Below, in pieces: positions 4,129 to 23,062 of a stretch of 50,860 nucleotides of DNA. This DNA is from a virus. A program made the position numbers and the translations under genes. Location: positions 1 through 50,860 of IMG/VR virus record IMGVR_UViG_3300047408_000275; one strand, written 5' to 3'. The notes below the pieces were generated by a model. It worked only from the letters and a program-made list of their open reading frames with translations. It searched no databases and was not told where the DNA came from. How positions within the stretch are numbered: the stretch's first letter is position 1; the number at the start of each line of letters is the position of its first letter.

Positions 4129-4452
4129 ATGTCACAGGTTACAGATATAATTCAAAACGAATATATTGGAAAATATGCACTTGTTAGAGCATATGCTTCG
4201 GGCGTTCATTTTGGAAAAATAAAGGCATACGATCCAGAAATCCGACATGCAGTATTAGAAGATACTCGCATAATTCATAGTTGGTCAGGAAAAAGATTAT
4301 CGCTTCATGAAATATCTCTGGAATCTATTGTCAATGGTCGGCTGACAGTATCGATTCCTCAGAATATGGTAACGGACGTAATAGACATTCTATTTGTTTC
4401 AGCAGAAGCTGAAGCACATCTGAAAGAATTCCCAGCGTATAAATGTGAGTAA
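4129..4452 (+). CDS. phage protein resembling DUF6948 family (107 aa)
   Basis: AAAGGAG precedes the ATG. The sequence YALVRAYASGVHFGKI followed by RHAVLEDTRIIHSWSGKRLSLHEIS matches my memory of the DUF6948 phage family (VRTYSAGVFFG... and ...ARRIWYWxGAxSL...). The function of that family is unknown. It is transcribed from its own strong promoter and overlaps the following Gly-rich gene by 8 bases. The family assignment is from recall and not from a search. Confidence 0.6.
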   Translation: MSQVTDIIQNEYIGKYALVRAYASGVHFGKIKAYDPEIRHAVLEDTRIIHSWSGKRLSLHEISLESIVNGRLTVSIPQNMVTDVIDILFVSAEAEAHLKEFPAYKCE

Positions 4453-4768
4453 GCTTAACTTTATCTTTAACGTAATCAACTGTAACTTGCTAGAGCGTTC
4501 TGGTCTTGGCAATGGCAATGGCTATGGCTATGGCTATGGCTATGGCTATGGCTATGGCTATGGCTATGGCTCTGGCTCTGGCTATGGCTCTGGCGATGGC
4601 TCTGGCGATGGCTCTGGCTATGGCTCTGGCTATGGCTCTGGCGATGGCTCTGGCGATGGCTCTGGCGATGGCTCTGGCTATGGCTCTGGCGATGGCTCTG
4701 GCTATGGCTCTGGCTATGGCTATGGCTCTGGCTATGGCTCTGGCTATGGCTCTGGCGATGGCTATTAA
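4445..4768 (+). CDS. Gly-X repeat protein encoded by a hexanucleotide tract (107 aa)
   Basis: A GTG start overlaps the end of the preceding gene. After about 20 ordinary residues the protein becomes (Gly-X)n with X = Tyr, Ser or Asp, ending right at the stop. A Gly-Tyr/Ser/Asp polymer would be disordered and could be adhesive or phase-separating. Because the DNA tract is also free of stops in other frames, translation in this frame is likely but not certain. Coupling to 4129-4452 supports it. Confidence 0.5.
   Translation: MSKLNFIFNVINCNLLERSGLGNGNGYGYGYGYGYGYGYGYGSGSGYGSGDGSGDGSGYGSGYGSGDGSGDGSGDGSGYGSGDGSGYGSGYGYGSGYGSGYGSGDGY
4502..4766. repeat. hexanucleotide microsatellite (GGC-NAT/TCT)n
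   Basis: About 44 tandem units of the form GGCTAT, GGCTCT or GGCGAT. The order of variants is irregular but every unit keeps GGC. At least two other + strand frames are open through the tract (Ala-Met/Leu and Trp-Leu). Such tracts are prone to slippage, so length may vary between virions. Confidence 0.95.
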
Positions 4769-4780
4769 ATTTTCATATGC

Positions 4781-4894
4781 CTATTTGGACATATCTATTC
4801 CGAACATATATTTTAATATTAAATAGAGCACTGATGCGCCTACCATAAACCAACATAGAACAACAAATGTGTCAAACATTTCACTAGCAATCAT
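4781..4894 (-). CDS. small membrane protein (37 aa)
   Basis: An ATG preceded by AGGAG at good spacing opens a 37-codon frame. The product has one clear hydrophobic helix (TFVVLCWFMVGASVLYLIL, about residues 9-27) and a short basic/polar tail. It is the last gene of the - strand operon before the + strand Gly-rich island. The function is unknown. It could be a holin-like or host-membrane modulating peptide. Confidence 0.6.
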   Translation of the reverse strand: MIASEMFDTFVVLCWFMVGASVLYLILKYMFGIDMSK

Positions 4895-4944
4895 CACATA
4901 ACTCCTGTCGCATGTTTTAGAACATGCCAATCCCTTTTCAACTA

Positions 4945-5100
4945 TTATTTATGTTTTTGTATACGATCCACAATGTAAGACGAAAGAAAATAACACGAAG
5001 ATCCAATCAATACGGTCTCTAGATTCGTCAGTTCCCACCCTATTATTTTTGCTAAAGTAGTACAAATTAAACCGATAAGAACAGATATTAACACTATCAT
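4945..5100 (-). CDS. small membrane protein (51 aa)
   Basis: AAGGAG precedes the ATG, and the frame runs 51 codons to TAA. The N-terminus (IVLISVLIGLICTTLAKII) is a strong transmembrane helix, and a second moderately hydrophobic stretch follows (ETVLIGSSCYFLSSYIV). The C-terminus is basic (DRIQKHK). It starts 2 bases after the stop of the HigA-like gene, so it belongs to the same operon. A two-helix protein of this size could be a holin or antiholin, but nothing proves it. Confidence 0.6.
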   Translation of the reverse strand: MIVLISVLIGLICTTLAKIIGWELTNLETVLIGSSCYFLSSYIVDRIQKHK

Positions 5101-5102
5101 TA

Positions 5103-5357
5103 TTAACACTTCTCCTTTATTTTTTCGATATCATAGTCTCTCTGCAAATTAAGCCAAAATATTACCTCTGTATCAGGCAGAAGAATCGTTAGCTTTTCTG
5201 CAATATTCGGCGTTATTCGACCACTGCTCTTAATAAAAGAATAAATACTAGGATAAACATCTGAACGCCTATATAGCTTTACTCCCGATTTTCGTTCCCA
5301 TTCCTTTATATACGTCTTTACAATATTGTATGGCGCTCTAGGGTCTTTTAAAGACAT
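5103..5357 (-). CDS. HigA/VapI-like antitoxin-family protein (84 aa)
   Basis: The C-terminal half, GRITPNIAEKLTILLPDT then FWLNLQRDYD, follows the end of HigA-type Xre antitoxins (iTpemAlrLakalg...FWLnLQaaYDl). The N-terminal helix-turn-helix part is divergent. HigA normally represses and neutralises the HigB RNase. No HigB-like gene is next to it here; the neighbours are small membrane proteins. It may be a solitary regulator or an antitoxin mimic protecting against a host HigB. Confidence 0.55.
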   Translation of the reverse strand: MSLKDPRAPYNIVKTYIKEWERKSGVKLYRRSDVYPSIYSFIKSSGRITPNIAEKLTILLPDTEVIFWLNLQRDYDIEKIKEKC

Positions 5358-5358
5358 C

Positions 5359-5544
5359 TCAAGATTTCCTGAAAAAATCGTAAATATTTTTCATTGGAAC
5401 TGCGGATATACAGACCAAAAAAGCATCCTTCACGGATGGCTGAAAACCTAAAAATACGCATAACACAGCATATGACGGAAGTAGTACGCATAAAAATGGC
5501 GTAATTTCCTCTATACAATCTAAAAATTCGGTCATTATACTCAT
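5359..5544 (-). CDS. small membrane protein (61 aa)
   Basis: Largely hydrophobic middle (ITPFLCVLLPSYAVLCVFLG) with a second hydrophobic stretch (DAFLVCISAVPM). It ends 1 base before the start of the HigA-like gene and starts 1 base after the stop of the preceding gene. This tight packing supports a real gene although the Shine-Dalgarno is weak. Unrecognised family. Confidence 0.55.
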   Translation of the reverse strand: MSIMTEFLDCIEEITPFLCVLLPSYAVLCVFLGFQPSVKDAFLVCISAVPMKNIYDFFRKS

Positions 5545-12335: not shown

Positions 12336-12440
12336 ATGGCTCACGCTTTCTTGGTATATAAGACGAGTGAGGATAGTGATGTGGCTATGTTCTTTAGCAG
12401 GTGCAATTCCTGCCGGTTGCTCAATTTATGTAGGAGATGA
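12336..12440 (+). CDS. possible small Cys-containing protein (34 aa)
   Basis: The frame MAHAFLVYKTSEDSDVAMFF... ends with CNSC and CRR. Its stop overlaps the ribosome site (AGGAG) of the lipoprotein gene that follows, as in coupled genes. The Shine-Dalgarno is weak. It was preferred over a longer TTG-started frame at 12331 that would overlap the lipoprotein gene. Confidence 0.3.
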   Translation: MAHAFLVYKTSEDSDVAMFFSRCNSCRLLNLCRR

Positions 12441-12445
12441 ACAAT

Positions 12446-12568
12446 ATGCGATATCGGATATTAACTATGGTTGCATTCTTATTGCTGAGCGCGTGCTCTC
12501 CCGCTGGTATAAGGATAACAGAAGAAGTGATTGAAGATGTTGCTGAGAAAGAGCTTTTAAGTTATTAA
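12446..12568 (+). CDS. small lipoprotein (40 aa)
   Basis: AGGAG precedes the ATG. MRYRILTMVAFLLLSAC is a textbook lipoprotein signal with lipobox LSAC at residues 14-17, leaving a mature peptide of 24 residues (CSPAGIRITEEVIEDVAEKE...). The size is like an Rz1 o-spanin or a colicin-type lysis or exclusion lipoprotein. It is not proline-rich and no Rz-like partner surrounds it, so a spanin role is doubtful. Confidence 0.7.
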   Translation: MRYRILTMVAFLLLSACSPAGIRITEEVIEDVAEKELLSY

Positions 12569-13305: not shown

Positions 13306-13614
13306 ATGAGTATATGTGATGTATGTGAGAAAGTAGAAATAGTTAAGTGTGACTATTGCAAAAAATCAGAGCTTCGTGCTAGAGAATGTGCGAATAAAGA
13401 TATCGTTTTTGGATTAACAGGTCAAAAACTGACAGCGGACCAAGAATTGTCTATTCTTAGGATAAAAGCTATCGCTAGAGAGCTTTATGAATATGTTGAT
13501 AGTCTTAATGACAATTTCTCTGCAGCAGAGTTTTCATTAGCTAAGCACAAGCTAGAAGAATGCGTGATGTGGGCCAGTAGAGGGATTACTAAATACGACA
13601 GAACCAAGCTTTAG
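13306..13614 (+). CDS. Acb2/Tad1-hairpin-like protein with N-terminal zinc-finger motif (102 aa)
   Basis: Residues about 42-96 (LTADQELSILRIKAIARELYEYV... then KLEECVMWASRGIT) resemble the helical hairpin of the Acb2/Tad1 family, whose members sequester cyclic nucleotide signals of CBASS and Thoeris immunity. The LEExxMWAxxxIT end is the part I recognise. The first 28 residues have CxxC (4, 7) and CxxC (15, 18), a likely zinc-binding addition. GGAG/AGGA precede the ATG. It has a regulated-looking promoter. Homology is by pattern recall; sponge activity is inferred. Confidence 0.6.
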   Translation: MSICDVCEKVEIVKCDYCKKSELRARECANKDIVFGLTGQKLTADQELSILRIKAIARELYEYVDSLNDNFSAAEFSLAKHKLEECVMWASRGITKYDRTKL

Positions 13615-13624
13615 CTTTGAAGTG

Positions 13625-13653
13625 TTGACAAGACTGTTTACATCTGGCAATAT
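13625..13653 (+). promoter_or_regulatory. promoter for the 13702-15457 gene set
   Basis: TTGACA (13625-13630) and CAATAT (13648-13653) with a 17-base spacer. The spacer carries ACTGTTTACATC at the same place as the leftward promoter at 7737-7766, giving TTGACAAGAnnGTTTACATC in both. The -10 match is weak. Confidence 0.55.
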
Positions 13654-13701
13654 TTCTTCTGTTGTCCTGCGTGCTGGGTATCTATTTTATAGAGGTATAT
13701 T

Positions 13702-13893
13702 ATGTCTTGTCTTATTTACCATAAATGGACGCGCTGGAATCAATACACCAGGAAAGGAAATATGGTCATAAATGGTATTATGTTTGACATGGTCGAATTT
13801 AAAGACAAGTTTCTCAACTATAAAGAAAATTATCAAGTAAGATTTTGTAAGGAATGCGGGAAGAGACAGGACGAGTTTATATCATATGAATAG
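13702..13893 (+). CDS. small protein with CxxC zinc-type motif (63 aa)
   Basis: AGAGG precedes the ATG. The start SCLIYHKWTRWNQY and the end VRFCKECGKRQDEFI resemble small phage proteins that open with a His-Lys-Trp segment and close with CxxCG, probably binding a metal. Function unknown. Confidence 0.65.
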   Translation: MSCLIYHKWTRWNQYTRKGNMVINGIMFDMVEFKDKFLNYKENYQVRFCKECGKRQDEFISYE

Positions 13894-13911
13894 GAGAAAC
13901 AGGAGTAAATC

Positions 13912-14121
13912 ATGTCAAATGAGACGATCAAAAGGTTAACGGGAAGATATCAAGATTGGCTTGTCAATTGTCTATCAGACAAGAATGAATTAATTGCCTA
14001 TCTGAAAGCATGTCTAGAAGATTTTGAGTTAAACGAACAAGAAGAATCATTTATAATTTTACAATGGTCGCTTGAAAGGGCGCTCGAGGCTCTGTCTAAA
14101 AAGGAGAAACAGGAATGCTAG
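13912..14121 (+). CDS. hypothetical helical protein (69 aa)
   Basis: ACAGGAG precedes the ATG. Acidic and helical (LKACLEDFELNEQEESFIIL). It overlaps the next gene by 7 bases. Unrecognised. Confidence 0.6.
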   Translation: MSNETIKRLTGRYQDWLVNCLSDKNELIAYLKACLEDFELNEQEESFIILQWSLERALEALSKKEKQEC

Positions 14122-14567
14122 AATTTTTCACATGGTACATGGTCGCATCCATTGTAGGTGCGTGGGCACTAATAGCCTATGTATTCTATAGGCTATCGCG
14201 GATGTCTGAGGACATACGTGAACTTGTAATGTCAAAAGTAAACGTTAAGAGCAATGAATTACAGATTGTTTCTATTGATAAACGATTAACAAAACACTCA
14301 GAAATATTGAGTGATCGCGCAAAAGATATCGGAATCCTTGAAGACACTCAGGCAGCGCTTCATCGGAAGATCTCAGACGAGACCACCAAACGGCAAGCGA
14401 TGATAGGAGAAATGCTTGAAATGTCTGCCAGCATGATTGCGCTTAAGTCTTACATAGATGAGCACATTAATGGTCGGCATAAAGACCTTTGTGATGACTT
14501 GAGAACATTAGACACATGCTTTAAGGAATCGCTTGATGACATAAAGGAGAAACTACTAAATGACTGA
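14115..14567 (+). CDS. membrane-anchored coiled-coil protein (150 aa)
   Basis: An N-terminal transmembrane helix (WYMVASIVGAWALIAYVFY) is followed by about 120 residues of heptad-patterned coiled coil (IDKRLTKHSEILSDRAKDIG, LDDIKEKLL). AGGA precedes the ATG. The layout (one anchor, long cytoplasmic or periplasmic coil) resembles Rz-type i-spanins, but an Rz1 partner is not embedded or adjacent. Role uncertain. Confidence 0.65.
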   Translation: MLEFFTWYMVASIVGAWALIAYVFYRLSRMSEDIRELVMSKVNVKSNELQIVSIDKRLTKHSEILSDRAKDIGILEDTQAALHRKISDETTKRQAMIGEMLEMSASMIALKSYIDEHINGRHKDLCDDLRTLDTCFKESLDDIKEKLLND

Positions 14568-14994
14568 CGACGATATGACTTTTGTCGAAAACGACAAAAA
14601 CCTAAAGCGCGATGACCCATCCGATTGCAAAGATTCTGATGATGCGATGAGCCTGCTAAGAAAGCGCGCTCAAAAGCAAGCAACACAAGAAGTGGCATCA
14701 CTTATGTCTGGCGAGGTTATTGAACTTACGCCAGAGATTCTAGAAGAGCTTGTGGTAAAAGCTCAAGAAACTAGCGATTACTTTAACGGTAAGCTTGACG
14801 ATTTCATGACGCTAGAGCTCGCGACTGCTGCGAGAACGTTGAGGCAGGCTGGCTTTACGTGGCGTGGGATTGCGCAAGAATTCAACGACATGCTTGATGG
14901 CGATTGGGGTAGTAATCAGATTATGGGTATGGAAATTTGCACAGCCGCGGCTAAGTTGTTGGGCGAAGATTCTGATGCGGAGCCTTGGAATTGA
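14560..14994 (+). CDS. hypothetical protein with C-terminal DGDWG module (144 aa)
   Basis: An acidic disordered start is followed by a helical region. The last 55 residues (RQAGFTWRGIAQEFNDMLDG, then DWG and GMEICTAAAKLLGE) are shared with the protein at 16881-17210 (HRLWDGDWG ... AEAFL ... SWN). Both end near Trp-Asn. The module is a phage paralogue family of unknown function. Overlaps 14115-14567 by 8 bases. Confidence 0.65.
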   Translation: MTDDDMTFVENDKNLKRDDPSDCKDSDDAMSLLRKRAQKQATQEVASLMSGEVIELTPEILEELVVKAQETSDYFNGKLDDFMTLELATAARTLRQAGFTWRGIAQEFNDMLDGDWGSNQIMGMEICTAAAKLLGEDSDAEPWN

Positions 14995-14995
14995 T

Positions 14996-15457
14996 ATGAG
15001 CAAACCTTTCCTCTTTATTGATACAGAATTTAACGGCTCACCCCTAAACGGGTTTTCCGGACAACTTATTTCAATGGCCATTCTTGATAAATTCAATGAG
15101 TTTTACGAGGTAATAAGGTTGTCAAATGACATACCAATCGACCCGTGGGTAGAGGAAAATGTAATCCCAGTTCTTAACAAGACCCCTATTTCATTCAAAG
15201 AGTTTCAGGGAAAGCTAGAATCTTTTCTAAATAAGTGTTTTTTTCCAGATGGATTTATTATTGTAGCCGACTGGCCAGATGACATTAAGTATTTCTGTGA
15301 TTCCTTGATTACTGATCCTGGGTATATGATTTCTGTGCCGTCCTTTGAGACGCGCGTTATATTAGATATAAACTCTAGTAATTCGAATATACCTCATAAT
15401 GCTCTGGAGGATGCGAAAGCTATTAGGGATTCTTGGTTAACTAAAATTTTAGGATAA
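14996..15457 (+). CDS. DEDDh-type 3'-5' exonuclease (153 aa)
   Basis: The start chosen is the ATG right after the previous stop, giving MSKPFLFIDTEFNG; a longer frame upstream overlaps the previous gene. Exo motif residues are visible: D9 and E11 (FIDTEF), D92 (VADWPDD), H134 and D139 (HNALEDAKA). This is the RNase T/DnaQ-like fold; substrate may be DNA or RNA. It lies a few genes from the RNA ligase and could trim RNA ends, though this is inference. It ends before a terminator. Confidence 0.78.
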   Translation: MSKPFLFIDTEFNGSPLNGFSGQLISMAILDKFNEFYEVIRLSNDIPIDPWVEENVIPVLNKTPISFKEFQGKLESFLNKCFFPDGFIIVADWPDDIKYFCDSLITDPGYMISVPSFETRVILDINSSNSNIPHNALEDAKAIRDSWLTKILG

Positions 15458-15506
15458 ACCGTCATGAAAGACTTTAGCAGCAAATCTGGTCATATAATGT
15501 TATGTT

Positions 15507-15537
15507 GGCCGCGTTAGAATAACGGGCGCCTTTTTTT
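15507..15537 (+). terminator. rho-independent terminator
   Basis: A GC-rich stem with GCGTTA-GAA-TAACG at its tip and GGC/GCC at its base is followed by seven T. It closes the transcription unit that ends with the exonuclease gene at 15457. Confidence 0.8.
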
Positions 15538-15604
15538 ATACTATGCCAAAGGGGTATTTCCCAGAGCACTTTAATAGAGATGATTATATTTCAGGGGAAT
15601 AACA

Positions 15605-15811
15605 ATGGCAGATGAAAAAATTAGAACAATAACAGCATATGCGCATAAGCCATTCGCGCTATCTTGGCAACTAATAATAAACTCTGTTTTGTATGACCTT
15701 AAAGAAAAATATGGTCGAGAGTTTTCGGCAGATGATAAAGAGGCGGATGATATCTTGAAAGTGCTTTTCGAAAAACATAAACAGTGGTGGGAAAAGGAGC
15801 CTTGGAAATGA
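15605..15811 (+). CDS. hypothetical protein (68 aa)
   Basis: CAGGGGA precedes the ATG. Helical with an aromatic, acidic C-terminus (LFEKHKQWWEKEPWK). Its stop overlaps the YopX-family start (ATGA). It follows the terminator, so a promoter should lie in 15538-15590, but I do not see a clear one. Unrecognised. Confidence 0.6.
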   Translation: MADEKIRTITAYAHKPFALSWQLIINSVLYDLKEKYGREFSADDKEADDILKVLFEKHKQWWEKEPWK

Positions 15812-16305
15812 GAGAGCTTAAATTTAGAACCTGGTTTGAAGACACCAATGAAGTAACAAAACCATGGACTATATGCGATGTTTCGGAGGGAAAAGATCCG
15901 AACTTTGGGTTCATAAGAAAAGAACCTTTTGGAGCTGGAACAGGAGGAACAGCAGTAGGAGGTATTTATTTAAGTCAGGTTAGAAATCATAGAATAATGC
16001 AATACACCGGACTTAAAGATAAAAACGGCAAGGAGATTTATGAGGGTGATATCCTGTCATGTTTTAGTTCATGGATAACGTGTAATAAAAGTAATAGAAT
16101 TAGAAGGCAAGAATTACAAGCAGGAATTGTTACTTTTAAATTTGGACATTTTAGGATTGAAGACGAAAAAGGATATTGTATCAAAGATATTGATGATGAG
16201 GAAGATTTGCAAATAATTGGTAATATATATCAAACTCCTGAAATTGAAATTGGAAAAATTGATATTTTATCTGAAATTCCTATGGGAAGCTGGGAGAGAT
16301 ATTGA
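15808..16305 (+). CDS. YopX-family protein (165 aa)
   Basis: Starts MRELKFRTW, with AAGGAG at the right distance inside the previous gene. The features IMQYTGLKDKNGKEIYEGDI and DLQIIGNIYQTPE are diagnostic of the YopX family, common in phages and prophages of many bacteria. The biochemical role is unknown. The usual family length (about 130-170 aa) is matched. Confidence 0.9.
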   Translation: MRELKFRTWFEDTNEVTKPWTICDVSEGKDPNFGFIRKEPFGAGTGGTAVGGIYLSQVRNHRIMQYTGLKDKNGKEIYEGDILSCFSSWITCNKSNRIRRQELQAGIVTFKFGHFRIEDEKGYCIKDIDDEEDLQIIGNIYQTPEIEIGKIDILSEIPMGSWERY

Positions 16306-16339
16306 AATAATCCGAAACATCTACGAAAACCACGACCTA

Positions 16340-16368
16340 TTGGAAACCCCTGAATAGTTTGTTATACT
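16340..16368 (+). promoter_or_regulatory. sigma70-type promoter
   Basis: TTGGAA (16340-16345), a 17-base spacer and TATACT (16363-16368), 37 bases before the GTG at 16405. It drives the 16405-18703 unit containing the RNA ligase. Confidence 0.75.
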
Positions 16369-16404
16369 GCCCACACATGGATAGAGCTTCAAGGAACAAG
16401 GATA

Positions 16405-16884
16405 GTGGGAGTGGCGCATAGCAAGAAAAGGATAAATCCATTCGCAGGAGCAAGGATTGATACCTTTAAAGCGCTATGCCAAGCATATGCTCCAGAAGCA
16501 CTTGCGCTAATCAAGGATATGATTGAAGATAGGTCTACACGAGAAGCCATAAGATTTCAGGCATTAAAATTCGTGGTAGAGCAGGCTTATGGAAAAGCTT
16601 CTCAATCGCTTGTGATTAGAGAAGAACAGGAAGTTTCGGCTGCGATGATGTCTACAGCGCAACTAAGACTAGCAGCAGCAGGGCAAACACAGGAATTAGT
16701 TTGCAGCCTTATAGAGTCAGGGAAGCTCGATGAATACACTCGTGCGTATAAAGGATTACGCGAGGAAAAGGATATAACACAGCCGATAGAAGCGCTCAAG
16801 GATAAGCGCGAGGCTGAGGCCAGGGATGGCCTCAAGGATGGACGTGTGTCAAAAATAAAAGCTAAGAGGGCGTCTAAGAAATGA
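16405..16884 (+). CDS. terminase small-subunit-like protein (159 aa)
   Basis: GTG start (another GTG two codons later is possible) with AGGA-type sequences upstream. The segment YAPEALALIKDMIEDRSTRE followed by AIRFQALKFVVEQAYGKA matches a motif found in phage small terminase-like and DNA-binding proteins (tPeAl..l.eim.d...p..aR..Aa..lldraYGka). The C-terminus is strongly basic. If it is the small terminase it lies about 6 kb from the large subunit, which is unusual, so it may be only a domain relative. Confidence 0.5.
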   Translation: MGVAHSKKRINPFAGARIDTFKALCQAYAPEALALIKDMIEDRSTREAIRFQALKFVVEQAYGKASQSLVIREEQEVSAAMMSTAQLRLAAAGQTQELVCSLIESGKLDEYTRAYKGLREEKDITQPIEALKDKREAEARDGLKDGRVSKIKAKRASKK

Positions 16885-17210
16885 GGTCTCTGCAAAATGT
16901 AAAATTAATTTTGTTTGGGCACGCACTTGAATTCGTGAACTCAGACGAAAGAGCTCGCCTTATCATTTATCTTCGCATTAATAAAAAAAGAAGTTACGAA
17001 ATTTCTGAGGAATGCCATAGGTTATGGGATGGTGATTGGGGCAATCCCGAATTAAATTATGATATGGGAGAAGCCCTGTACAAAGCCGCTGAAGCGTTTT
17101 TAACAAATGATGTTCCGACTTCGTGGAATCATATAGGGAAAGCTCTCGAAGAGGCAATATACAAGAATGATCAACAAGATGAAAAATGGTGGGAGGGAAT
17201 GCTAAAATGA
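16881..17210 (+). CDS. hypothetical protein with DGDWG module (109 aa)
   Basis: Contains HRLWDGDWGNPELNYDMGEA and a following AAEAFL...SWN, shared with the C-terminus of the protein at 14560-14994, so the two are paralogues of one phage module. Coupled by overlap to both neighbours (ATGA at each end). Function unknown. Confidence 0.65.
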   Translation: MRSLQNVKLILFGHALEFVNSDERARLIIYLRINKKRSYEISEECHRLWDGDWGNPELNYDMGEALYKAAEAFLTNDVPTSWNHIGKALEEAIYKNDQQDEKWWEGMLK

Positions 17211-18202
17211 CTAGAAAGCTCGCTTCAATACGTATGATAGGGTCAATCTCTCCAATTGAAGGTGCTGACAATATAGAACTTGCTCATGTTGATGGCTGGC
17301 AATGTGTTGTTAAGAAAGGCGAGTTCATCGCGGGACAGCTTTGTGTTTATTTTGAGATAGACTCATTTTTGCCTATCCGACCAGAAAAGGAAGGGTTTAG
17401 GCTTCGGACGATTAAGCTGAGGGGGAAGATATCTCAGGGGTTAGCGATTCCTTTTCATTCTTTCCCCGGTATTGAATGTGATAAGGCTGACATTCTTGGA
17501 AGTGATGTTACAGAGCTTCTTGGAGTCTTAAAATACGATCCGCCTATCCCAGCTCAGCTTGCGGGAATCTGCAAAGGGAATTTCCCTTCTTTCATTAGAA
17601 AGATAGACCAAGAGCACGTGCAGAACCTATGGCATAAAATTAAAGATTGTGAAGAGCATTTTGAAGTTACGATTAAACTTGATGGGTCAAGTTGTACCTA
17701 TTACCTTAACGATGGAATATTTGGCGTATGCTCTCGAAACTTGGAGCTTAAAGAAGATGAGAATAATACCTTCTGGAAGATAGCTAAAAGGCACGATATT
17801 GAGTCTATTTTGAGAAATTACGGTAAAAATATAGCATTACAGGGAGAGGTCATAGGTGAAGGTATTCAAGGTAACCCGGAGAAGATAAAAGGTCAGGAAT
17901 TCTATTTGTTTGATATATGGGATATTGATAGGCAACAATATTTAGATCCGGAAGAACGAGCAGTATTGTGGAGCAAATGTCTTAAAGACAGAGGAGTTTG
18001 TTGGTGTCCGTATGCTGAAGAGTTTAAGATGCTTGCGCCAAGATTGTCTCAATTTAAAGACATTAATGAGCTTCTTGATGCTGCAAATGGAAAGTCATTG
18101 AATTCTGGAATGCGAGAAGGAATTGTTTTTAAGTCTATGGAAATTGGCTCCGGCTTAAGATTTAAGGTTATATCTAATGAGTATCTTTTAAAAGGATATT
18201 AA
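17207..18202 (+). CDS. RNA ligase, Rnl5/DRB0094-like (331 aa)
   Basis: The start follows GGGAGG and overlaps the previous stop. Nucleotidyltransferase motifs are in order: I KLDGSS (K157 is the adenylation site), Ia VCSRN (174-178), III EFYLFDIW (231-238), IV EGIVFKS and V RFKVIS. An N-terminal domain of about 110 residues (KLASIRMIGSISPIEGADNI... VKKGEFIAGQLCVYFEIDSF) matches the OB-like domain that precedes the ligase core in DRB0094-type enzymes. Such enzymes reseal nicked RNA, and in phages RNA ligases undo anticodon cleavage by host defences. No polynucleotide kinase partner is visible. Confidence 0.9.
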   Translation: MTRKLASIRMIGSISPIEGADNIELAHVDGWQCVVKKGEFIAGQLCVYFEIDSFLPIRPEKEGFRLRTIKLRGKISQGLAIPFHSFPGIECDKADILGSDVTELLGVLKYDPPIPAQLAGICKGNFPSFIRKIDQEHVQNLWHKIKDCEEHFEVTIKLDGSSCTYYLNDGIFGVCSRNLELKEDENNTFWKIAKRHDIESILRNYGKNIALQGEVIGEGIQGNPEKIKGQEFYLFDIWDIDRQQYLDPEERAVLWSKCLKDRGVCWCPYAEEFKMLAPRLSQFKDINELLDAANGKSLNSGMREGIVFKSMEIGSGLRFKVISNEYLLKGY

Positions 18203-18265
18203 TTGCGCCAGACCAGTCAATAGAATATATTAAATATTTGGGAATTCAATAGAAGGAGACATAGC

Positions 18266-18703
18266 ATGAAAGATAAAATAGTAGCAGGCCTAATGCTTTT
18301 TTCTCAAGCAGCTCAAGCAGTAACAACTATAGACAAGAACAACTATCGCCAGCATTTATGCGATTCTGGTTTATTTATACCAGTTGTTAGAGAGGGTACG
18401 ACTCCTGCCGAAAATTGGTGGGAAAAAGGATTTATTAATCAAGATTACCAAGTATATTGTGGAACTAAAGCAAACTACGAGCGAGCTGTTGAGGATAGCA
18501 ATAAGAGGGGGGTTAATCATTATCCTTGTCTTGGAAACCAGAAGGATATGATTACAAAAGATGCTTGTGTAGAAAAGCATGGCATTGAATATGCCCAAAC
18601 TTGTGAACGATTAAAGGAAGATAGAGAAAAATATCGGGCTGCATGGAATTCAATGATGCCAGTCACATCATGTAACAATATGAGACGTATGAGACGAAGA
18701 TAG
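18266..18703 (+). CDS. exported Cys-rich protein (145 aa)
   Basis: AAGGAG precedes the ATG. MKDKIVAGLMLFSQAAQA is a signal peptide cleaved after AQA. The mature part has six cysteines in spaced pairs, consistent with disulfides in the periplasm, and an Arg/Met-rich end (NNMRRMRRR). No family recognised. It may modify the host envelope (exclusion or lysis). A strong terminator follows. Confidence 0.65.
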   Translation: MKDKIVAGLMLFSQAAQAVTTIDKNNYRQHLCDSGLFIPVVREGTTPAENWWEKGFINQDYQVYCGTKANYERAVEDSNKRGVNHYPCLGNQKDMITKDACVEKHGIEYAQTCERLKEDREKYRAAWNSMMPVTSCNNMRRMRRR

Positions 18704-18726
18704 TCAACAGTCATTGGTCATGTGTT

Positions 18727-18764
18727 GCCCTATATGTTCCTTTCCTGGCGTATAGGGCTTTTTT
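18727..18764 (+). terminator. rho-independent terminator
   Basis: GCCCTATA (18727-18734) pairs with TATAGGGC (18751-18758), followed by T6. It ends the 16405-18703 transcription unit. Confidence 0.88.
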
Positions 18765-18810
18765 GTTAGCGGTTTGTGATATGATGTTATTCGTGTAGAG
18801 GAGAATTAAT

Positions 18811-19566
18811 ATGGAAATTAGTATAATCAGTATTTTCGCATTGTCGTCATTAGCGACAGCAGTAATGCTTGGAGCATGTTATTTATTTATCTCGCGTGAT
18901 TCAAAAGAGATAGAGCGACTGAACATCAGAAATGCGGAGCTGTTTTTCGATAATTCTATGCTTAATGCTCAAGTTGTTGAGCTAAAGAATGCGTTAGATA
19001 AAAGCATTGTCAAATGTAAGCTAATTGAAGATAAGGATTACTTTTTTAATCGCTTTATCTCACCAGCTTATGTAAAGTTAGATTCTGATAAACAGTTATT
19101 ATGCAAATCGCTCGGTGTTACCAAGGAGGAGTACGATAATGAAATGCGGAGGTATGAAGGCCTAGAAGAAACGCTTTTAACTTATCGTGTTCATGACTTG
19201 CTTTTAGAGTCTGGATATCTTTACTCCAAGAAGTTTAAGAATAGATTTTCAACTGGTGAATGCGACAACTGTAATCAGAAGATAAATAAGCTTATTGAAG
19301 AGATTCAGGATGTAACGCAATCGGAATGTCATTGTAAGGAAAAATTTAATGGGGAATTTTCTGTCGAAGATATTTCGAAATCAGACGCCCTGTCTAACGA
19401 AACTTTTGGTCTGCTGATAAAGAACGCGAAATCGAAGAATATCGGGCGAAGGAAAAGTGAAGATATTTCTGACGCAGAAGCACTGGCTGACGCAATTAGC
19501 AAGGGGATTAAACTGAAGATAAAGGCATCTGCTAAAAGCCAGGATAGCTATAGTTTCGACTTTTAA
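18811..19566 (+). CDS. membrane-anchored coiled-coil protein with Cys cluster (251 aa)
   Basis: AGAGGAG precedes the ATG. A transmembrane helix (IFALSSLATAVMLGACYLFI) is followed by a coiled coil (residues about 30-70). A cluster CDNC (about residue 151) and CHC (about 172) may bind zinc. The C-terminus is Lys/Ser-rich. Family unknown. First gene after the terminator at 18727-18764. Confidence 0.6.
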   Translation: MEISIISIFALSSLATAVMLGACYLFISRDSKEIERLNIRNAELFFDNSMLNAQVVELKNALDKSIVKCKLIEDKDYFFNRFISPAYVKLDSDKQLLCKSLGVTKEEYDNEMRRYEGLEETLLTYRVHDLLLESGYLYSKKFKNRFSTGECDNCNQKINKLIEEIQDVTQSECHCKEKFNGEFSVEDISKSDALSNETFGLLIKNAKSKNIGRRKSEDISDAEALADAISKGIKLKIKASAKSQDSYSFDF

Positions 19567-19645
19567 ATAACATGGGAATAGACATGGTTAAAATAAATGG
19601 TGTCTATAAGTATGCTTTTTGTGACTCAAGTTTATGGTCGCTTAC

Positions 19646-20131
19646 ATGAGCGATAATAGAAATCTAAGGATGTTGGAATTATTTCTTTCTCGGAAAGATG
19701 GAGCCCCAGAAGACGAATATCGTAAATGTCTTGCAGAATTTGAGGATATGATAAGAAAGCATGGATATTATAAGCTTGTGTGTAATTTCGATGTATCACA
19801 ATCTCTGACTGAGCCACCGATGTCACCTACGCCAATGCCAGTCATAAAATTATATCCAATTGAAAAAGACCGCGAGTCATTTTCTTTTAAATATATAAAA
19901 ATAACAGAGGAGGTTCTCTCAGATGATGATATTGAACAAAAACGTCAAGAATTTGAAAAACTTGATAAGATAAAATGTTCAGAGGATTTGGCTATGGCTA
20001 AGAAAATTACTTGCGATAGAAGAATTGAAGGTCGTGGACATTATTTCAAATATGAAAACCGCTATGAAAGCCACCAGGATTGTTGCGCATTCTGTGGAAA
20101 ATATGTGTGCGATATTATAAATGAATCTTGA
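19646..20131 (+). CDS. hypothetical protein with C-terminal zinc-type motif (161 aa)
   Basis: Start taken at MSDNRN, though an in-frame ATG at 19634 is possible; neither has a good Shine-Dalgarno. Acidic body with a proline segment (EPPMSPTPMPVIKLYPIE), and a C-terminus with HxxC-C-CxxC (HQDCCAFCGKYVC) that suggests metal binding. It overlaps the next gene by 11 bases. Unrecognised. Confidence 0.55.
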   Translation: MSDNRNLRMLELFLSRKDGAPEDEYRKCLAEFEDMIRKHGYYKLVCNFDVSQSLTEPPMSPTPMPVIKLYPIEKDRESFSFKYIKITEEVLSDDDIEQKRQEFEKLDKIKCSEDLAMAKKITCDRRIEGRGHYFKYENRYESHQDCCAFCGKYVCDIINES

Positions 20132-20849
20132 GCCAGAAGACTTAAAAATAGACATATTCGGCTACGGCCTTCCATCAGGAGAAAGCTATTATAGGGTAAC
20201 TCATATACCTACTGGGAAGATAGGCTGCTGCGACCAGCATTGTATTCGTCATTTTGAAATGAAAGACATATCAGACTCAGATAGAAAAGAATGTGCAATC
20301 CAAAGGTTGTTTAGTTTACTTAGAAACCAGCATGAATCTTATAAATCTGTTGCTCATGATATCTGCAATCATATGGCGGAGCGCGATATCGAGGATATCG
20401 GCATAAATGACGCCATAAATCAATATATCGAACATTATGATAATGCGTGGGAATACTTCAAAACAAACAATAAATTTAATCACCCTATAATTCCAAAATT
20501 CTTGCTTTCTAGAGAAATCGTGGAGCGCTTCCATGGAGAGGCGGCAGCAAGAAAAGCTTTCGATGATTGGGTGTATGAGTTTAAGAATAGAAAGCCATCG
20601 AGTATAGAAGAGAAAAATCTTTCGCATCATGAGGACAAGATTCCATTAAAGAACCTTCTTAAGAATTGTGGCCTGGTGAGCAGTACGTCAGAAGCATTGC
20701 GAATGATAAAACAAAATGGTGTTAAGATAGATGATATTATAGCATCAGAAGATGTTCCTATAGCGGCTGACAATGTATATAGGGTTTTCCAGGTCGGTAA
20801 AAAACGTTTTTTAAAGGTAAGAGCGTCAAATAGCAAGGGGTTTGCGTGA
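20121..20849 (+). CDS. protein with tyrosyl-tRNA synthetase C-terminal region and S4 domain (242 aa)
   Basis: Residues about 127-153 (FLLSREIVERFHGEAAARKA) and 174-234 (KNLLKNCGLVSSTSEALRMI, then VKIDD and YRVFQVGKKRFLKV) match the end of bacterial TyrRS: the LAxEIVxxFHG helix and the S4 RNA-binding domain that grips tRNA-Tyr. The catalytic Rossmann domain (HIGH, KMSKS) is absent. The first 75 residues are unrelated to TyrRS; YRVTHIPTG faintly recalls the release-factor core strand, but no GGQ is present. It probably binds tRNA or other RNA. It lies between accessory genes and just before NADAR. Confidence 0.8.
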   Translation: MNLEPEDLKIDIFGYGLPSGESYYRVTHIPTGKIGCCDQHCIRHFEMKDISDSDRKECAIQRLFSLLRNQHESYKSVAHDICNHMAERDIEDIGINDAINQYIEHYDNAWEYFKTNNKFNHPIIPKFLLSREIVERFHGEAAARKAFDDWVYEFKNRKPSSIEEKNLSHHEDKIPLKNLLKNCGLVSSTSEALRMIKQNGVKIDDIIASEDVPIAADNVYRVFQVGKKRFLKVRASNSKGFA

Positions 20850-21295
20850 TGACTGATTACATATTTTATAAAGGTGATCCCCATGTGTTTTCAAACTTTC
20901 ACATCGCGCCTATACATATAGATGGTAAGGTTTGGGCTACATCTGAGCATTATTTTCAGGCGATGAAATTTCATGGTTATGATGATGAGCATAAAGAGAA
21001 AATAAGATTAGCCGAGACTACTGGTAAAGCATATAGGTTAGCATGGGAAAAAAAGATACCCTGCTCTAACTGGGATGAAATAAGAAATGATGTTATGCGA
21101 AAGGCTTTGCTGAATAAATTTGGTCAACATGTTGAGCTTGAAAAAATACTTCTTGATACTGGAGAAAAGAATATAGTACAGCGTTGCAGTAAGGATAAGT
21201 ACTGGGGCGATGGATATCCCGGTAAGGGGGAGAATATGTTAGGAAAGCTTTTGATGGAAACTAGGGAAAGGATTCGACGATATGAAAGCATTTGA
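20849..21295 (+). CDS. NADAR (YbiA/DUF1768) N-glycosidase (148 aa)
   Basis: The ATG overlaps the upstream stop (TGATG), with AGGGG upstream. Signature parts: DPHVFSNFHIAPIHIDGKVW, TSEHYFQAMKF (E33 in the catalytic position), and KYWGDGYPGKGENMLGKLLM with a following R. NADAR enzymes cleave N-glycosidic bonds of riboflavin intermediates and ADP-ribose conjugates; the antitoxin DarG1 uses this domain to remove DNA ADP-ribosylation made by DarT1. A phage copy could reverse such defence marks. Confidence 0.92.
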   Translation: MTDYIFYKGDPHVFSNFHIAPIHIDGKVWATSEHYFQAMKFHGYDDEHKEKIRLAETTGKAYRLAWEKKIPCSNWDEIRNDVMRKALLNKFGQHVELEKILLDTGEKNIVQRCSKDKYWGDGYPGKGENMLGKLLMETRERIRRYESI

Positions 21296-22986: not shown

Positions 22987-23062
22987 TCCCCCTTAGCTCA
23001 GCTGGTAGAGCACGCGGTTGTTACCCACTAGGTCGGTGGTTCGAGTCCATCAGGGGGAGCCA
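22987..23062 (+). tRNA. tRNA-Asn (GTT)
   Basis: 76 bases including an encoded CCA. The acceptor stem TCCCCCT/AGGGGGA, D-arm GCTC/GAGC and T-arm GGTGG/CCATC with TTCGAGT loop are canonical; the discriminator is G. The anticodon loop TTGTTAC gives GTT (Asn). The anticodon stem CGCGG/CCACT pairs at only three of five positions (27-43 C/T and 29-41 C/A are mismatched). It sits just before the terminase gene. Confidence 0.9.

Follow-up and report, generated by a model that had tools for sequence, protein, structure and literature searches.

Do the genes for nucleic-acid repair and nucleotide-signal proteins that lie within 8 kb of a phage genome act together against bacterial defences, or are they kept side by side for separate reasons? 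The question is raised by positions 13306-21295 of the IMG/VR virus record IMGVR_UViG_3300047408_000275, which was analysed in its entirety as a window of 50,860 bases and which comes from a tailed phage with recognisable genes for an annealing protein, a replication initiator, terminase, portal and capsid; no close DNA relative was found among GenBank phages. The cluster is part of an accessory region bounded by the replication genes on one side and by terminase on the other. An initial annotation had recognised in it an Acb2/Tad1-like signal sponge, a DEDDh exonuclease, an Rnl5-type RNA ligase, an S4 protein derived from tyrosyl-tRNA synthetase (TyrRS) and a NADAR enzyme, and had proposed that they serve jointly in counter-defence and RNA repair. 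We confirmed the observation, all five domain calls being right, and found the interpretation partly supported; the fourth product turned out to be a chimera, only half of which is accounted for by TyrRS. The five products, named here by the first position of their genes, are encoded by open frames, all on the + strand, and since many gene junctions within the cluster overlap by 1-14 bases, at least part of it is likely to be co-expressed.

The chimera is encoded by an open frame of 242 codons (20121-20849, + strand) that overlaps both neighbouring genes. Its C-terminal part matches TIGR00234 with an E-value of 1.7e-13 (NCBIfam), at profile positions 292-404 only, and the TyrRS structure 6byq at 5e-7; the top Foldseek match of the chimera model is the TyrRS-tRNATyr complex of T. 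thermophilus (9sfq, prob 0.98, E 0.12). The TyrRS catalytic Rossmann domain, with its HIGH and KMSKS motifs, is absent from the chimera and the C-terminal tail alone aligns, so by sequence this part is a TyrRS-derived tail including the S4 domain and its preceding helices. The tail is closest to TyrRS of beta-proteobacteria (46-48% identity, E 5e-20) and gamma-proteobacteria (42%, E 1.5e-19) and far from the Rickettsiales TyrRS tested. In place of the catalytic domain, the chimera carries at its N-terminus a release-factor-like domain of the RF-1 family. This part matches phrog_20323 (0.0037) and, in a pairwise comparison, the RF-1 protein of phage TehO (1e-8), which itself passes the Pfam RF-1 profile; a profile drawn from ten phage proteins in GenBank placed the chimera first of 3,259 open reading frames (1.1e-5), while the canonical release-factor profile gave only 0.35. 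GGQ is absent from the domain and the RSQ..N part of the core is not kept, but the chimera follows the pattern of the phage GGQ-less RF-1 family: a short RF-1 domain, the (R)xTHxPTG motif and no GGQ. No relative of full length came up: tblastn searches of phages and plasmids retrieved TyrRS genes or RF-1 proteins, and pattern scans of viral contigs, L003 apart (a relative described below), retrieved none.

The N-terminal half of the chimera thus belongs with a set of short phage proteins, the mini release factors (mini-RFs), which unlike it are free-standing. They occur in Septimatrevirus, T4-like Acinetobacter phages, Myrna/Phabba and OLIVR5, and the ten GenBank proteins compared come from Pseudomonas, Acinetobacter, Agrobacterium and Mycobacterium phages, where they are annotated as release factors or hypothetical proteins, further copies in the group being annotated as peptidyl-tRNA hydrolases. 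All twelve mini-RFs compared (these ten and those of the window and of L003) miss the GGQ, which the four cellular controls have, having been picked by that motif; THxPTG and the RSQ..N core are kept in most of the twelve. In four Acinetobacter phages (DP45, AB1I1T, Mokit and Ac42) the mini-RF gene has tRNA genes nearby, and in DP45 also an RNA ligase gene; in a fifth phage, W16, no tRNA is annotated within 2.5 kb of it. The Ac42 gene is also close to vs and vs.1. GGQ-less short RF-1 proteins, most of them labelled release factors, form a widespread set in GenBank phages (L058, L059, L060, L062, L063, L065 and L066).

Of the other four products, that of 13306 matches the Pfam family PF24729 (Acb2_Tad1_hairpin) with an E-value of 1.4e-10, scoring 41.7 bits where the curated cut-off is 27, and phrog_1454 at 3e-5, and by its sequence it is a member of this hairpin family, sharing with the sponges Acb2 (Vs.4 of phage T4) and Tad1 the helical hairpin domain and the MWA tail motif, which is kept in an alignment of seven sequences. 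It differs from them by an additional cysteine pattern ahead of the hairpin domain (C4-x2-C7-x7-C15-x2-C18, that is CxxC...CxxC), which suggests a small metal-binding knuckle. A sequence search of the PDB with this product gave no matches; a structure search with its low-confidence model retrieved T4 Acb2 (7uq2, 2.8-2.9 Å over 71-73 columns), at rank 12-13 amid generic hairpins and with a non-significant E-value. A lack of similarity to Acb2/Tad1, which would have counted against the initial annotation, is contradicted by the clear Pfam match. The 154-residue product of 14993 matches phrog_2259 ('Rnase H', PHROGs) with an E-value of 1.3e-23 and has all the DEDDh residues, in the motifs DTE (D10-E12), DW..D (D93) and H....D (H135-D140). 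The ligase 17204 aligns over its whole length with the Naegleria Rnl5 structure 5cot (E 1.3e-84), matches the PHA02142 OB domain (6e-29) and RNA_ligase (1e-27), exceeds the cut-off of TIGR02306, the profile of the Rnl5 prototype DRB0094, and has motifs I, Ia, III, IV and V intact (KLDG, SRN, FYLFDIWD, EGIVFK and FKVIS). By domains and motifs it is a complete Rnl5 ligase, built like Deinococcus DRB0094 and Naegleria NgrRnl of an OB domain and a full-motif ligase core, but encoded by a phage among other nucleic-acid genes. Finally, the product of 20849 matches PF08719 (E 2.7e-32, 112.7 bits against a cut-off of 35.1), TIGR02464 (125.1 against 73.7) and E. coli YbiA (2b3w, E 1.6e-34), and it shares with the YbiA/NADAR guanine-ADP-ribose hydrolases the fold family and the equivalents of Glu33, Asp116 and Trp119. 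The features are collected in Table 1.

Table 1. Features of the cluster and the nearby tRNA gene, with positions in the window
Feature	Position	Strand	Evidence
Chimera residues 1-75, GGQ-less RF-1 (release-factor) domain	20121..20345	+	phage-protein profile, TehO, phrog_20323
Chimera residues 117-242, TyrRS C-terminal part with S4 domain	20469..20846	+	TIGR00234, TyrRS matches, Foldseek
Acb2/Tad1-hairpin protein, 102 aa	13306..13614	+	Pfam PF24729, phrog_1454
DEDDh 3'-5' exonuclease-like protein, 154 aa	14993..15457	+	phrog_2259, motifs
Rnl5-type ATP-dependent RNA ligase, N-terminal OB domain	17204..18202	+	profiles, structure, motifs
NADAR (YbiA-type) protein, Gln111 for catalytic Glu	20849..21295	+	PF08719, TIGR02464
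YopX-family protein	15802..16305	+	PF09643 2.3e-18; 47% in L003
Terminase-small-subunit-like protein	16405..16884	+	phrog_10899 0.0032; 73% identical in L003
tRNA-Asn(GTT) gene	22987..23062	+	just upstream of TerL

Two relatives, recognised by their large terminase subunit (TerL), show how the region changes. L003, whose TerL is 93% identical to that of the window, retains the YopX, terminase-small-subunit-like, exported-protein and HNH genes and the tRNA-Asn, and it has the two halves of the chimera as separate genes, the TyrRS tail at 4788-5411 (47% identity) and a mini-RF at 2704-2958 (pairwise 2e-6). When parts fused in one phage are encoded separately in so close a relative, a functional link between them is classically suspected. 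In L067, a 52-kb record with a TerL at 64%, a NADAR gene is followed directly by a ligase gene 62-70% identical to 17204. The region is modular, with NADAR and ligase as one travelling pair and mini-RF and TyrRS tail as another. A small lipoprotein-like sequence, CSPxGIRITEEVIEDVAE, is near-identical in the window (12437-12568) and in L003 (4389-4526), and its different places are a sign of gene shuffling in the region. Downstream of the L067 ligase lies a gene that by eye looks like those of HigA antitoxins.

What could these genes do together? The activities of the products and their joint role are inferred from what the sequences show (domains, motifs, the order of the genes, relatives), and we tentatively favour, at rather less than an even chance, a modular accessory region loaded with nucleic-acid repair and counter-signal genes. 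The hairpin protein would sequester a nucleotide signal, probably without the cyclic-dinucleotide contact made by T4 Acb2, and the Rnl5 ligase would rejoin RNAs that host nucleases have cut, tRNAs being the likeliest. The chimera would act as a non-catalytic RNA-binding shield or adaptor, for tRNA or the 50S subunit. Septu EcB88 and retron-Eco7 are defences that cut tRNA(Tyr). The C-terminal S4 region of TyrRS binds an arm of the tRNA, and its derivative in the chimera could hold tRNA(Tyr) or a similar tRNA, while the GGQ-less release-factor domain would dock on the ribosome or on peptidyl-tRNA without hydrolysis; such docking would protect the tRNA from cleavage or release, and a cut tRNA could be presented to the ligase. 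The NADAR protein would be a binder of ADP-ribosylated guanine or of ADP-ribose whose hydrolytic activity is lowered or changed. A natural pair of a release factor and an RNA ligase exists in RtcB2-PrfH (PMC9223846), and the release-factor-domain protein mtRF-R, which has a GGQ, acts with MTRES1 on split large ribosomal subunits (PMC8786322). In both systems, to which the chimera may be likened, the partner of a release-factor-like protein is either an RNA ligase or another factor that binds the large subunit, but their release factors are catalytic and the ligase here is of the Rnl5 and not the RtcB type, so the analogy is one of mode and not of membership.

Several observations weigh against this explanation, and the first of them concern residues on which the functions of two of the five products would depend. 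At the position of T4 Acb2 Tyr8, whose mutant Y8A is binding-deficient (PMC12657230), the hairpin protein 13306 lacks an aromatic residue and has Gly39 or Gln40, depending on the alignment, with Phe35 nearby; a Rickettsiales hairpin protein likewise lacks an equivalent aromatic, which is thus not universal in the domain family. Thr68, whose change to Met lowers the affinity of T4 Acb2 (PMC12657230), was not kept as a diagnostic residue, T4-like Acb2 proteins themselves being variable there. In the NADAR protein the catalytic Glu is replaced. The catalytic acid of NADAR proteins lies on the last strand and is a Glu in the YbiA type and an Asp or His in other subfamilies, the Glu of the YbiA type standing 5 residues before a conserved Asp and 8 before a conserved Trp (E125, D130, W133; PMC11543638). 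The segment in 20849 reads Gln111-Arg-Cys-Ser-Lys-Asp116-Lys-Tyr-Trp119, with a CAG codon for Gln. Among 19 viral relatives the site holds Glu in 17, Ser in one and Gln in one, that of L067, which is the closest relative (63% identical); a sequencing error is unlikely given this identical Gln, and Gln111 is probably real and specific to the lineage. In a DarT1-linked NADAR, replacing the corresponding Asp by Asn or Ala abolished efficient activity (PMC11543638), and Gln111 predicts a reduced or changed activity; the protein may even be inactive. A NADAR domain by itself is in any case no proof of anti-DarTG1 function, since a phage NADAR was active in vitro and only the NADARs of E. coli C7 and EPEC rescued cells from DarT1 (PMC11125620).

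Other points concern the remaining parts and their association. The literature examined documents no counter-defence role for DEDDh relatives of the 14993 type. The AlphaFold models of the hairpin protein and of the chimera are poor (pLDDT 47-49), and structural comparisons made with them count for little; the mini-RF match of the chimera is modest and lies mainly in residues 1-37. RtcB2-PrfH is reported to give no protection from tRNA-targeting toxins (PMC9223846). NADAR, ligase and DEDDh genes are absent from the 6.9 kb sequenced upstream of TerL in L003, the L067 ligase (4616-5524) matches no further than residue 243 and is without motifs IV and V, and neither the Acb2 hairpin nor the chimera was found in the 52-kb record of L067. 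With such different subsets of genes in the relatives, the parts have no fixed partnership, and of the proposed joint role it is the pairing of NADAR and ligase that finds a parallel in L067.

A rival explanation is an ordinary accessory region, whose genes are kept for reasons as varied as RNA processing, nucleotide salvage and host takeover and have no common counter-defence role. We consider it about as likely as the explanation that we favour. The families of the RNA ligase, the DEDDh nuclease (124 phage records, scattered through large phages, many of them jumbo) and NADAR (418 phage records) are widespread in phages, the relatives swap genes, and the catalytic Glu of NADAR and the Tyr8 of Acb2 are not retained here. 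Interspersed in the cluster are, besides the YopX-family gene, a gene similar to the small terminase subunit, which is probably a packaging gene and not an anti-defence one, a spanin-like membrane gene and a gene for an exported protein with a signal peptide. With these genes in the cluster and the differing subsets in relatives, guilt by association, on which the earlier suggestion that the small genes are further anti-defence candidates rests, is weak. Against an ordinary region speak the hairpin family, which includes tested counter-defence sponges, the retention of the NADAR-ligase pair in L067, and the theme common to four nucleic-acid or nucleotide-signal families that lie in 8 kb together with a chimera predicted to bind tRNA.

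For the chimera itself, the specific form of the counter-defence explanation is that 20121 is a new factor in which a TyrRS tail and an emptied release-factor domain shield tRNA(Tyr) or 50S peptidyl-tRNA from nucleases such as PtuAB and pass cut tRNA to the Rnl5 ligase, a proposal that we regard as unlikely in this full form. An explanation that we also hold to be doubtful is that the chimera acts on host translation, the mimic of a release factor and the S4 domain occupying large subunits or blocking host ribosome rescue and so favouring translation of the phage. S4 proteins such as Hsp15 bind the 50S subunit, and they appear in the fold search of the chimera; the loss of GGQ throughout the mini-RFs, most of which keep the other core motifs, and the joint work of mtRF-R and MTRES1 on the split large subunit point in the same direction. 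However, the tail of the chimera is nearest to TyrRS tails and not to Hsp15, RqcP or MTRES1, and the RSQ..N part is lost in the window protein. It is less probable still that the chimera is a degenerate relic, the captured 3' end of a TyrRS gene that became joined accidentally to a short gene of the phage and has no function. The lack of any full-length relative in the collections searched would fit, as would the unlike N-terminal parts of the window and L003 S4 proteins, but the frame is open over 242 codons and overlaps both neighbours, L003 retains each half as a gene of its own, and the tails of the window and L003 keep the identical stretches GKKRFLKVR, STSE and DNVYR although the proteins otherwise differ. 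Very improbable, finally, is a defence module carried by the phage for superinfection exclusion, for although NADAR matches the PADLOC candidate PDC-M42C (2.8e-12) and, far below its cut-off, NCBIfam DS32_2_antiphage, the only further PADLOC match is a weak one to LmuA in the chimera (0.0024), neither DarT nor any other toxin was identifiable among the genes of the cluster, and the Acb2 family opposes defence.

Some observations concern the surroundings of these genes. The products of 14560-14994 and 16881-17210 have in common a motif containing GDWG (35% over 37 residues, E about 0.005), and their genes are possibly distant paralogues. Two frames of a low-complexity stretch (window 4445-4826) translate into repeats of GYGYGSG or LAMA. 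By inspection, two pairs of the anticodon stem are mismatched in the tRNA-Asn(GTT) of the window and positions flanking the loop are altered, whereas that of L003 (6821-6897, likewise just upstream of TerL) has a fully paired stem; both tRNA genes have an HNH endonuclease gene on their other side. Ankyrin-repeat genes are present in L003 (70-477, by Pfam) and in L067 (1965-2300, by sequence similarity), and TerL of the window has its nearest match in the Rickettsiales, in Candidatus Bandiella (51%), which are hints of phages of intracellular bacteria. The TyrRS tail points instead to beta- or gamma-proteobacteria, and an assignment of the host was dropped because of this disagreement.

The combination of a release-factor-like domain with a TyrRS tail occurs in no other phage record searched. 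For the short phage RF-1 proteins more generally, the database label 'release factor' is misleading, since the motif for peptide release is missing in all those examined, and several of their genes are close to phage tRNA genes. Known phage answers to tRNA-cutting defences are spare tRNAs and repair enzymes, and a shield made from the tail of a synthetase would be a different answer. If the chimera did act in this way, the free-standing GGQ-less mini-RFs of many phages would form a wider family of decoys that protect translation.

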